Assembly: GCF_005576615.1 (NCBI RefSeq) | Contig: NZ_CP040330.1 | Coordinates: forward strand, 1,240,001 to 1,304,000 | Reading direction: 5' to 3' | Source of the DNA: Natrinema versiforme | GTDB taxonomy: Archaea; Halobacteriota; Halobacteria; Halobacteriales; Natrialbaceae | DNA: 64,000 bases | Part shown: in pieces, positions 42,071 through 45,738 of the stretch | Layout: each line of letters starts with the position of its first letter | Position numbering within the stretch: the first letter of the stretch is position 1 | Position numbers and translations under genes: made by a program | Notes under the pieces: generated by a model | Databases searched by the model: none | Told to the model about the DNA's origin: nothing | What the model saw: the letters and a program-made list of their open reading frames with translations, nothing else

Positions 42071-42673
42071 GTGACTGACGGCGTGTTCGAGGATCCGGCG
42101 AATACGCGCGAAGAAATCCTGGCCGCCACCTATCGCTGTCTTAGAAAATACGGCTACGCCGATCTGACGATGCAGAAGATCGGCAACGAACTCGAGCAGA
42201 GTCCGTCGCTGGTCTATCACCACTACGAGAACAAGGACGCGCTAGTGATCGCGTGTCTCGAGTACCTACTCGAGCACTTCGAGGACGAGCTTGGTCGCGG
42301 ACGGGTCGACGATCCGCGGGACCGACTCGAGGAGATGCTCGACTGGTGGTTCGCAACGGATGTCGACGACGACTGGCACGCGTTCCTGACGACGGTCCTC
42401 GAACTCCGAGCGCAGGCGGTTCACGATCCGGACTACCGAGAGCACTTCACCCGAAGCGACCGCGTGTTCAAACAGTCGCTCGCGGCGGCCCTCCGCACGG
42501 GGATCGATGCCGGGCTCTTTCAAGAGTGCGATCCGGACGCCGTCGCCGAGACCCTCCAAACGATACTCATCGGCGCGGTCCTTCGGCGCTCGAGTACCGA
42601 TGCCGATGCGTGGCTTGAGGAAGTCCACAGTGAACTGGAGCGGTATCTCGAGTCGCGCGTGTACAAGAACTAA
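42071..42673 (+). CDS. TetR/AcrR family regulator
   Basis: The product is 200 residues from GTG 42071. The N-terminal helix-turn-helix is NTREEILAATYRCLRKYGYA with LTMQKIGNELEQSPSLVYHHYENKDAL, a strong TetR match. The C-terminal part is helical (LEEMLDWWFATDVDDDWHAF), as in ligand-binding domains. It is divergent from the RND operon, and a quasi-palindrome lies between them, so it likely controls the exporter and maybe itself. An alternative frame of about 35 codons (41971-42078) overlaps its start. Confidence 0.93.
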   Translation: MTDGVFEDPANTREEILAATYRCLRKYGYADLTMQKIGNELEQSPSLVYHHYENKDALVIACLEYLLEHFEDELGRGRVDDPRDRLEEMLDWWFATDVDDDWHAFLTTVLELRAQAVHDPDYREHFTRSDRVFKQSLAAALRTGIDAGLFQECDPDAVAETLQTILIGAVLRRSSTDADAWLEEVHSELERYLESRVYKN

Positions 42674-42990
42674 TTCGTAACTCGAATCGAACTCTCTCCG
42701 CTTCTTTGGGTGAGCACCATTGCTGGTCGCGGCTCGTAAGTTCGTCTTACTGTTGCGTTCGGATTTTTCTCTCGTGATCGGTGGGCATACTCACTCGAGG
42801 ATACCAGACTGAGGTCGGCCAGGGGAGCCTCAAACCACGTAATAATATTTTATAACGACTGTCGTTGTGCCGTACTATTTAGGGCCTGTTTCGGCGGTAT
42901 ACCGTCTCACTCGAGCGGTTAAGAGACTTTTACCGATCAACGACAGAGATCTATGCTTCCAGAAAGCTTATTACTAAATCCTTAATACCA
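42674..42990 (+). promoter_or_regulatory. Upstream promoter region of the S-layer gene
   Basis: This region has no gene. Several TATA-like boxes point rightward: ATATTTTATAAC (about 42844-42855), GACTTTTACC (about 42926-42935) and CTTATTACTAAATCC (about 42967-42981). A small palindrome ACGAC-t-GTCGT (42855-42865) follows the first box, and a perfect 10-base palindrome CGGTATACCG is at 42895-42904. S-layer genes of haloarchaea are known to use more than one promoter, and the pattern fits that. Confidence 0.5.
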
Positions 42991-43110
42991 ATGAAACACC
43001 CCTACCCGGTGCGAGTCCCCCAAGCCGGGATCGATGCGGTATCGGCGATGACTCGCACTCCAGGTGAATCGCTCGATAACCAACCGAAACACAACCATAA
43101 CACAACATAA
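42991..43110 (+). CDS. Possible 39-residue leader ORF of the S-layer gene
   Basis: An ATG at 42991 opens a frame (MKHPYPVRVPQAGIDAVSAM and onward) that ends in TAA at 43108-43110, directly touching the S-layer ATG at 43111. The exact abutment allows reinitiation by the same ribosome. The first half contains the arm of a 9-bp stem. There is no proof of translation; the sequence may simply be the long structured leader. Confidence 0.35.
   Translation: MKHPYPVRVPQAGIDAVSAMTRTPGESLDNQPKHNHNTT
43009..43058 (+). promoter_or_regulatory. Stem-loop in the S-layer mRNA leader
   Basis: GTGCGAGTC (43009-43017) pairs perfectly with GACTCGCAC (43050-43058), enclosing 32 bases which can form a smaller CGAT/ATCG stem. 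It lies 52 bases before the S-layer start codon and inside the probable mRNA leader, so it may affect stability or translation of this very abundant message. Confidence 0.55.
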
Positions 43111-45738
43111 ATGACAGACGACGCAACCTATCGCGAAAAGGGACGTGCAGTAGTCCTGGCCGCGCTTATGGTTCTTTCCGTTGTCGCCATGTCCGCAGCG
43201 TTTGTGGGCGGGGCGGCAGCATCGAATGTGGACGATGATAGTGACGTTAATCAACTTGACAAACCGTTTACTCACGACAACCGATATTACGAAGGGCAGA
43301 TCGGTGTAATTGTCGTGGGTGATGACGGTGATGACTTTAGCACTGGTCTTGACGCCACTAACACTGTCGACCTAGTGAATAACGACACGGACAACATCGC
43401 ACAAGAACTCGAAGTCTACGCCGCAGGTGACGTTGACAGCGAGTTCGATGATGTCGGTGACGTTACTGCTTTCAATGGTATCGACAGTGACGATTATGTC
43501 GTCGTGACTGACACTGAAGGCCTCGAAACGAACGAATACTACCTCGATTACGAGTTTACCGAGGACACTGGGAGTATCCACGGTGGCACTCTCAGCGGTG
43601 ACGAGATCCGATTCGACATCGCAGTGCAGGATCTCAGCACCTCGTTCGACGATGACTCGGTAGCAAACACCGAGGGTACGAACGCAGAGACCGAACTCGA
43701 GATCGACTCGAAGATCCGCGCAGACTTCACCGCGAACGTCAGCGCTGACGGTCTCGATGCTGAAGAACTCTGGTCGATCTTCGGTGACGACGGTGCGGCC
43801 ACTACCGACGACGATCTCAGTACCTACGGCTCCGACTCGAACGTCAACTACGTTGACACCGAGGAGGACGTGATCGTTCTCGATGCTCGTGGTGACTTCA
43901 CCGCGAACTTCTCGGAGATCGACGCCGGTGACTACCAGTTCGATGTCGAAGCCAGCGACACCAGCGCTTCCGACAACGCAACGATCACCGTCACCGACGA
44001 CGACACTGACCGCTCGTTCACCGAAGGTACCTTCGTTGAAGAGCGAGGCAGTCTCGCGAACATCACCATCGATATGGACAACACCGACGAGGCAGCACTC
44101 CAGATCGGTGAATACGATGATGTTGCATACGAAGCTGGCCTGATCATCGACGCGTCGGACTACGACGGTGACGAGGTCACTGTCCAAGTCAACACGCACA
44201 AGGCCGGTAACGGTACCACCTTCAGCGATGAAGATGAATACTACACCGCACCTGGCAACGATGATGTCGATGTCAACCTTCAGTACATCAACGTCAGCGA
44301 GAACACGGTCTACAGTGGCGACTTCAGTGCTGACGCACTCAACAAGCCGCTCGCAACTGGAGACTACGAACTCATCATCGGTGACTCGTGGAACACCACC
44401 AACTCGGCCGTTCCCGAAGTCGTCAACAGTCAGGACTCCGCATACCTGACGCTCGAGGACCGCCAGCCAGCCGGCGACATCGCCACGCACACGGCGCCCG
44501 CCGACGCTAGCATGGACGACCTCGAGGACTACGAAGACGCAACCGTCACTGAGACGGAACTGTTCGCCGAGGACGACCACATGCTGGTCACCCTCGATGA
44601 CTTCGGTGCAACCGGCTTCCTTGACTCGGTTGACTCCTCGAACGTCAGCAGCGACTTCGCTGACGCGAACATGACCCTCGAGATCGAAGAGGCAGACCCG
44701 CGCGCCAACCAGGATGCGCAGGTCTGGAACTCCAGCCCGACGACTGGCGACAACAACCTCACGATGGAATTCGTCAACGCGGGCGACTACGAGGGCGATC
44801 AGCTGATCCTCCTCGTCACCGCCGCTGACGGCGACTTCAACTACGACAGCAAGGACTACGACGTCTCCTTCCAGATCACTGAGGACAACGTCTACGTCGA
44901 AGACGAAGACGCCGAAACTAACCACGAAACCACGTTCACCCTCGAGGAACGCGACCTTGAGTGGGACGACAGCGCTGCAGAAGTCAACGCAGTCAACAAC
45001 GCAACCGCACAGGGCTCGACCAACCTCGCGCCCGGTACGGAAATCAGTACGCGTGCAGCGGCCTCGGGTACGTTCGTCGAAAATGACGATCCCGCTGTCG
45101 AACTCGTCGACGGCGAGCGGACCTTCGAGTCCACCTTCAACTTCGGTGACTACGACGCTGGCACCGAGTTCACCCTCGAAGCCAACAACAACGACGGCAG
45201 CAAGGTCTCTGACGAGATCGACTCCGTCCTCATCGAGGGGACTGAAGCTCAGCCGTTCAACTACGACGTCACGTTCGACCCCGCCGAGCCCGCAGTCGGC
45301 GACAACGTCTCCGTGACGATCGACGTCGAAAACTCCAACGACCGCACGGCCTCCGAGAACGTCCACTTCGACTTTGACGGCGAGACCGTCATCGACGAAG
45401 AGGTCGAACTCGAAGCTGGCGGCTCCACCACGCTCGAAGCGACCCTCCTCGAGAACGCTGAGAAGGGCGACTACGACTACGAGCTCATCACGGACGATGA
45501 GTCGAACGACTCTGGCACGCTGACTGTCGGTGACGAAGGCGACGGTTCCGACGGCTCCGACGGCTCCGACGGCTCCGACGGATCTGACGGCTCCGACGGT
45601 TCCGACGGCTCCGACGGATCTGACGGCTCCGACGGCTCCGATGACGGCGACGACGACGGTACGCCCGGCTTCGGTGTCGGCGTCGCCCTCGTCGCGCTGC
45701 TCGGCGCTGCCATGCTGGCACTCCGCCGCCAGAACTAA
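43111..45738 (+). CDS. S-layer glycoprotein with PGF-CTERM anchor
   Basis: The product is 875 residues. The Sec signal peptide (AVVLAALMVLSVVAMSAAFV) is cleaved near residue 34. The mature protein is very acidic with long beta domains and at least a dozen N-x-S/T sequons (NVS, NFS, NAT, NIT, NGT, NTT, NMT, NLT, NDS), targets of AglB. Near the C-terminus is a stretch of repeated Gly-Ser-Asp, then GTPGFGVGVALVALLGAAM and LALRRQN, a PGF-CTERM signal cut by archaeosortase A and replaced by lipid. This is the main cell-envelope protein. In other haloarchaea a Thr-rich O-glycosylated stretch takes the place of the Gly-Ser-Asp repeats. Confidence 0.96.
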   Translation: MTDDATYREKGRAVVLAALMVLSVVAMSAAFVGGAAASNVDDDSDVNQLDKPFTHDNRYYEGQIGVIVVGDDGDDFSTGLDATNTVDLVNNDTDNIAQELEVYAAGDVDSEFDDVGDVTAFNGIDSDDYVVVTDTEGLETNEYYLDYEFTEDTGSIHGGTLSGDEIRFDIAVQDLSTSFDDDSVANTEGTNAETELEIDSKIRADFTANVSADGLDAEELWSIFGDDGAATTDDDLSTYGSDSNVNYVDTEEDVIVLDARGDFTANFSEIDAGDYQFDVEASDTSASDNATITVTDDDTDRSFTEGTFVEERGSLANITIDMDNTDEAALQIGEYDDVAYEAGLIIDASDYDGDEVTVQVNTHKAGNGTTFSDEDEYYTAPGNDDVDVNLQYINVSENTVYSGDFSADALNKPLATGDYELIIGDSWNTTNSAVPEVVNSQDSAYLTLEDRQPAGDIATHTAPADASMDDLEDYEDATVTETELFAEDDHMLVTLDDFGATGFLDSVDSSNVSSDFADANMTLEIEEADPRANQDAQVWNSSPTTGDNNLTMEFVNAGDYEGDQLILLVTAADGDFNYDSKDYDVSFQITEDNVYVEDEDAETNHETTFTLEERDLEWDDSAAEVNAVNNATAQGSTNLAPGTEISTRAAASGTFVENDDPAVELVDGERTFESTFNFGDYDAGTEFTLEANNNDGSKVSDEIDSVLIEGTEAQPFNYDVTFDPAEPAVGDNVSVTIDVENSNDRTASENVHFDFDGETVIDEEVELEAGGSTTLEATLLENAEKGDYDYELITDDESNDSGTLTVGDEGDGSDGSDGSDGSDGSDGSDGSDGSDGSDGSDGSDDGDDDGTPGFGVGVALVALLGAAMLALRRQN
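45541..45639 (+). repeat. Eleven 9-base repeats coding Asp-Gly-Ser in the S-layer gene
   Basis: Eleven copies of the 9-mer GACGGCTCC (with GACGGTTCC and GACGGATCT variants) run without gaps and encode (DGS)n just before the C-terminal anchor. Copy number of such repeats can change by slippage, which would change the length of the wall-spanning stalk. Confidence 0.95.

Follow-up and report, generated by a model that had tools for sequence, protein, structure and literature searches.

A candidate structured mRNA leader of haloarchaeal S-layer genes and its clade-specific form in Natrinema versiforme

Background

The gene of an S-layer protein in Natrinema versiforme is preceded by a leader that holds two conspicuous features: a short open reading frame ending at the very base before the start codon, and a strong stem. 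The original prediction saw in either of them a possible control of the most abundant protein of the cell. Which of the two, if any, belongs to the working leader, and does the same arrangement occur before S-layer genes of other haloarchaea? These questions are addressed here by comparison of the leader with those of its relatives. The whole stretch of DNA analyzed, 64,000 nucleotides, is referred to as the window.

Bacterial S-layer mRNAs, for example that of Lactobacillus slpA, have structured or stabilising 5' UTRs. In Halobacterium, the csg mRNA starts with a leader of about 111 nt. The mostly open-access literature searched offers no description of how an S-layer mRNA leader works.

In a report on Haloquadratum walsbyi, csg heads the listed genes in expression (PMC5496347). 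Termination-reinitiation couples genes in Haloferax volcanii, with 4- or 1-nt overlaps being the commonest (PMC6728339, PMC10666635), and a distance of about 20 nt nearly abolishes the coupling (PMC10666635). No description of the S-layer leader was found in PMC5496347, PMC6523106, PMC6728339, PMC8640222 and PMC10666635.

Results

S-layer gene and its promoter

The gene behind the leader (43111-45738, forward strand) codes for an S-layer-type surface glycoprotein of 875 amino acids. In profile searches, it matches the signal peptide profile TIGR04207 with 40.2 bits (cut-off 24.6), the PGF-CTERM anchor with 43.1 bits (cut-off 24.5) and NF045517 with 52.5 bits (cut-off 40). TIGR04207 and PGF-CTERM together identify it as a haloarchaeal S-layer glycoprotein gene; the whole-protein equivalog NF041335 (ArtA-dependent S-layer glycoprotein) gives 68.9, below its cut-off of 1100. 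TIGR04207 has a single match at E 1e-6 in the genome of the window and matches 185 of 194 haloarchaeal genomes; the places used were the best-scoring among the matches listed, so that weak signal peptides are under-sampled.

DNA similar to the leader region was found in 27 of 29 same-genus genomes, the two others being G003 and G005. The 30 genus leaders (window and loci L002-L031) share a TATA-like box, a 5' motif, a predicted hairpin and an A/C-rich tail. The proximal core promoter AGAAAGCTTATTAC (BRE/TATA; 42961-42974, forward strand) occupies the same place throughout the genus leaders, and its center lies about 27 nt 5' of A42998. Judged by its distance from the TATA box and by the conservation of the sequence that begins with it, this A is the presumed +1 of the S-layer mRNA. 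The 5'-terminal motif ACCCCTACCC (42998-43007, forward strand) is conserved in all 30 genus loci found by DNA similarity, in the form ACCCCTA[C/T]CC except in L028, where G replaces the first A (GCCCC). Among 38 genus DNA alignments, four begin at 42960, at the proximal promoter box, and four exactly at 42998; besides the window itself, four extend further upstream. TATA-like boxes upstream, proposed to give several transcript starts, do exist, but the comparison lends no support to multiple starts, since only the position 42961-42974 is common to the relatives.

The arrangement extends far beyond the genus. To the 30 genus leaders 109 from the class were added, and a TATA-like sequence starts 28-33 nt before CCCC (allowed range 22-34) in 124 of these 139 S-layer leaders, a count that includes L094, probably a false match with the motif lying 5' of the TATA box. 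The 15 leaders without the motif were dropped from the later counts of upstream frames (uORFs). A larger set of 161 leaders includes 37 taken from matches of the covariance model R1 described below; as these were chosen by the model, the rate of the motif is given for the 139 only. In the 161 leaders, A/T runs peak at about -30 to -24 relative to the first A of the motif, +1 is A in 149 and -1 is T in 132. In this set, for which leaders had been chosen with R1 or with a less strict version of the motif, genus-weighted conservation at motif positions +2 to +10 is 91-100%. Of 194 genomes, 19 contain the pattern CATTTA-N17-24-ACCCCTACCC; it has 20 places in total, each before an S-layer-type gene (17 coincide by coordinate with R1 matches and three were read directly).

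Several loci depart from this picture. L065 and L072 (g39) as well as L052 and L122 (g46) have S-layer-type genes and a TATA box with another 5' sequence; L065 and L072 carry AACGTGAACCGTCAGTCCCGTCTACCACTGG in place of the motif, possibly a different type of leader. TTA...GTACCCCTACCC occurs once more in the genome of the window, with GC-rich sequence after it (L035, G000:C2:2118436-2118472); no S-layer gene is visible behind this site, and it was rejected as a second leader, being perhaps a chance occurrence.

Hairpin of the leader

The original prediction named a perfect 9-bp stem, and this stem is present: GTGCGAGTC (43009-43017) pairs with GACTCGCAC (43050-43058) within the predicted fold. 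With the G-U pair 43008/43059 counted, the outer stem (43008-43017/43050-43059) reaches 10 bp and encloses a hairpin at 43008-43059 of the forward strand, with inner stems 43024-43028/43042-43046 and 43030-43033/43037-43040 that are predicted only. An A/C-rich tail (43086-43110, forward strand) leads to the S-layer ATG; over the 161 leaders, the last 25 nt contain 44% A and 31% C, compared with 20% A and 27% C in the leader body.

Neither feature stands out within the window. The length of the open reading frame means little, because 94 frames of at least 30 amino acids overlap the surrounding 10 kb, and the folding energy of the leader has a z of -1.6, with 13 of 200 shuffles folding at least as well. 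As frames of this size are common and the fold is only modestly better than the shuffles, comparison had to decide.

The 16 leaders closest to that of the window (13 of the genus and three from other genera of the family) keep the outer stem paired in 95.9% of cells, compared with 29-60% when the arms are slid and 92.3% after shuffling; none of 500 shuffles reached the observed value. Cells changed on both sides number 7 as against 2.5 in shuffles. Two pairs are changed on both sides, which 127 of 500 shuffles equal, and the number of further pair types in this clade is reached by 161 of 500. U-A/C-G exchanges at columns 19/58 occur in six of the 16 leaders. The predicted fold and this covariation suggest that the stem is a real signal of the leader, as the open reading frame apparently is not: conservation of both among relatives had been the proposed check, and the stem is kept in the 16 related leaders, with the frame interrupted even in the closest relative examined. 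The comparison supports selection on a stem in the S-layer leader, and a hairpin stands in this place class-wide in changed sequence.

S-layer-type genes of one genome can differ clearly in their leader hairpins, as do L004 and L030, about 3.5 kb apart on one contig (G020:C11), and L007 and L029 (G017:C1); within each pair the promoters are similar and the 5' motif is shared.

Leader element common to the class

Across the class, the leader follows one layout: a TATA box, 5'-ACCCCUACCC at the presumed +1, a P1 helix, an AGUA/GAA internal loop, the A/C-rich tail and the S-layer AUG. The RNA element itself runs from 5'-ACCCCUACCC through the P1 helix, AGUA opposite GAA and the P2 helix to the 3' arm of P1. 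By a loose rule, AGTA with a later GAA is found in 61 of 76 motif-bearing leaders outside the family of the window, and the class-wide form also exists within its genus (for example L019, L022 and L025). Alignment A1 comprises 43 hand-picked rows from 79 leaders with AGTA and GAA, so the letters AGUA/GAA are conserved in it by construction. Pairing of P1/P2 in A1 amounts to 77.5% of cells, compared with 34-54% slid and 65.0% shuffled, for a structure written by hand from the same rows on which it was scored. Cells changed on both sides number 88 (41.8 in shuffles); of 500 shuffles, 14 have as many pairs changed on both sides and 32 have as many further pair types.

Searched with the covariance model R1, 103 of 194 haloarchaeal genomes gave a match. 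The association of R1 with S-layer genes was checked on 40 matches from outside the leader set: judged by eye, 39 of the 40 lie directly 5' of S-layer-type signal-peptide genes, and the remaining one (L203) is a partial match (E 0.0074) with no S-layer-type gene behind it. L203 was left out of the statistics as not S-layer, together with L197 and L217, which contain N in an apparent duplication; at this place (G134:C50) the leader is nearly duplicated in tandem around the N before two S-layer-type genes, probably an artefact of an assembly gap. L063, for which no start was obtained, was also omitted. Among 79 named loci R1 has 45 matches; 28 of the 79 gave no leader, in many cases because the stretch stops short of the start. 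R1 does match at least four of the leaderless loci (L226, L230, L279, L297). The starts of L247 and L302 in the named set were moved by hand to a downstream MT.

In a draw of 196 genomes from the phylum, 17 match R1, 16 of them within the order of the window; the match outside the order (G218; E 0.006, short and weak) was taken as chance. A search of window positions 42600-43400 with 4227 Rfam families found none at its gathering score, only RF01064 appearing with 19.9 of 72 bits, and leaders of 20 relatives likewise matched no family at the gathering cut-off.

The leader of the window belongs to this element in part. It has the 5' ACCCCUACCC at promoter spacing (42998-43007). P1 and the AGUA/GAA loop are absent and a different hairpin occupies their place; R1 has no match at E 0.01 in the genome of the window, and run on the window alone it gives 17.8 bits (E 0.0037), in an alignment to the model that leaves most of P1 unpaired. 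We regard the 113 nt from A42998 to the ATG as the candidate 5' leader of the S-layer mRNA and a clade-specific form of a structured haloarchaeal leader, a reading which, taken as a whole, is our best explanation and to which we give an even chance. Its evidence is a fixed arrangement of promoter and 5' end, a covarying hairpin after it, an A/C-rich tail, a near-exclusive association with S-layer genes among the examined matches and, in many other lineages, an early AUG, usually at +11, with a frame that commonly stops at the S-layer start or 4 nt inside it. The larger find would be the leader RNA common to haloarchaeal S-layer genes, which lies below every Rfam cut-off.

Upstream frame in other lineages

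The idea of a leader frame coupled to the S-layer gene has support outside the clade of the window, with a different start. An early AUG (+10 to +15) is present in 88 of 161 leaders, at +11 in 81 of them. In 74 of the 88, the stop of its frame is no more than 14 nt away from the S-layer start, and in 38 the two overlap by exactly 4 nt (AUGA); the length from early AUG to S-layer ATG is 2 mod 3 in 58. Weighted by genus, of 31, 22.1 are in phase, 26.0 end within 14 nt and 16.7 have the 4-nt overlap. The 77 of 88 leaders with both anchors were compared with shuffles of the inner loop and the tail in which motif arms and lengths were fixed. Near-ends were seen in 25.0 of 29 genera against 15.6±1.8 (0 of 1000 shuffles) and 4-nt overlaps in 15.8 against 11.8±1.6 (1 of 1000), and randomizing the frame as well lowers near-ends to 9.1±2.0; genera were treated as independent though they are related, so these nulls overstate significance. 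Among 23 named leaders not identical to earlier ones, 18 end within 14 nt, 20 within 16 nt and six in the exact overlap, many of the 23 being from Haloarcula and thus not independent.

The peptide itself is not conserved. Within genera, differences are spread evenly over codon positions (38/43/39), so that the conserved peptide expected of a peptide-dependent attenuator or arrest leader is not seen, and GC3 is not raised in the early-AUG frames. In the variable parts, stops are no rarer in frame 0 (0.012) than in frame 1 (0.0103), although a stop rate as low as that of frame 0 occurs in only 10 of 1000 shuffles of it. Since the stop position exceeds the nulls and the codon positions are even, the end-point of the uORF looks selected and its peptide does not. 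The early AUG is missing in 73 of 161 leaders, including 43 of 53 in the family of the window. L046 and L047 (g35, the genus of several Haloferax records) have leaders of 77-78 nt that start with ACCCCTGCCC and lack it; the uORF is thus not present in every lineage.

The same observations bear on another account, in which the hairpin is a passive 5' structure that stabilises the mRNA, and the RNA motif brings the early AUG and its frame along as a by-product in other lineages. R1 still matches leaders without the AUG (ACCCCT[A/G]CCC followed by ACGG, AAGG or AGGG), and neither a codon-position signal nor a shortage of stops in frame 0 relative to frame 1 betrays a translated frame. A by-product of the motif, however, would not place the stop beyond nulls in which the motif is fixed, nor set the length to the ATG at 2 mod 3 in so many leaders, and we hold this account possible but doubtful.

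Alternatively, the conserved block could act mainly as promoter DNA, made up of TATA and the initially transcribed ACCCCTACCC, with the hairpin secondary. The fixed distance of the motif from TATA and the restriction of the promoter-plus-motif pattern to S-layer-type genes at all its places would fit; helices that stay paired despite sequence change are not what promoter function predicts, and such a reading appears very unlikely.

Frame abutting the S-layer gene in the window

The open reading frame pointed out in the original prediction is there as described: 39 codons (39 amino acids) on the forward strand from ATG 42991 to a TAA that ends at 43110, directly before ATG 43111. In the genus it is not conserved. 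TAA immediately 5' of the S-layer ATG is seen in 13 of 30 genus leaders, whose tails are A-rich, and an ATG at -120 only in the window and L003. L003 is the closest relative examined, 86% identical to the leader of the window, and it has an internal stop in this frame. ATG 42991 lies 7 nt 5' of A42998, and with the +1 at this A it would be outside the transcript.

An in-frame GTG follows at 43009 (+12). TGA comes immediately after this GTG in 11 of the 16 closest leaders, and the GTG frame stops within 14 nt of the S-layer ATG in only four of them: window (0), L007 (0), L009 (+4) and L071 (0). In L010, L013, L071 and L134 a GTG frame reads past the S-layer ATG and is still open 60 nt further on. 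The conserved frame expected of a coupled uORF, which would close at the main start or overlap it, is thus not found in the clade of the window, where the frame is present without being conserved. That the 39 codons are translated in Natrinema versiforme and their termination beside the ATG controls translation of the S-layer gene is highly improbable: the frame stays open to TAA-ATG and its GTG stands one base off the AUG place of other lineages, but its ATG precedes the presumed transcript start, the nearest relative interrupts it and few GTG frames end near the ATG. Control by a leader peptide from this frame is accordingly not borne out, and 42991-43110 is most likely a chance frame or a relict, chance being favored.

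Discussion

We propose that haloarchaeal S-layer genes have a dedicated mRNA leader, made of a hairpin and, in many lineages, uORF-coupled re-initiation, with only the hairpin retained in the clade of the window; we consider this proposal evenly balanced between right and wrong. The leader would act at the RNA level and support very high S-layer output. Its hairpin near the 5' end may protect the mRNA, with the unstructured tail at the start codon kept open for ribosomes to land. In lineages that have the early AUG, translation would begin near the 5' end and proceed across the hairpin; termination at the overlapping stop would then be followed by re-initiation at the S-layer start codon. The clade of the window would have lost the AUG together with the AGUA/GAA loop and kept the 5' end, hairpin and tail.

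A more elaborate version of this leader, which we think unlikely, is a two-state switch. A factor, for instance a protein, bound to the P1/AGUA-GAA hairpin would mask the +11 AUG and silence the mRNA; in the free state, ribosomes beginning at +11 would unfold the hairpin and then initiate again at the S-layer AUG. The factor would report the status of the cell surface or of secretion, and the clade of the window would have swapped the bound loop for a hairpin of its own.

Parts of the proposed leader resemble known systems. As in the termination-reinitiation of H. volcanii, an upstream frame and a main gene of haloarchaea meet in a 4-nt ATGA overlap (PMC6728339, PMC10666635). Unlike there, the upstream frame is about 20-50 codons long, unconserved in sequence and runs through a conserved hairpin, and it belongs to lineages other than that of the window.

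With AGUA opposite GAA between two helices, the class-wide form is similar to an internal loop of the loop E or bulged-G (sarcin-ricin) type, a likeness of sequence only and one that the variant of the window does not share. In another domain of life, the very abundant S-layer transcript of Lactobacillus slpA likewise begins with a long, structured leader, a likeness of general description. We know of no bacterial S-layer counterpart of the AGUA/GAA loop combined with the ACCCCUACCC 5' end. Closer to home, L076, the signal peptide of which we take to resemble that of Halobacterium csg, measures 111 nt from A(CCCC) to ATG.

Conclusions

Few haloarchaeal genes are expressed as strongly as that of the S-layer glycoprotein, and a leader RNA of the kind proposed here makes the control of this gene directly testable in tractable haloarchaea. 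The S-layer leader could also serve as a 5' leader in expression vectors.
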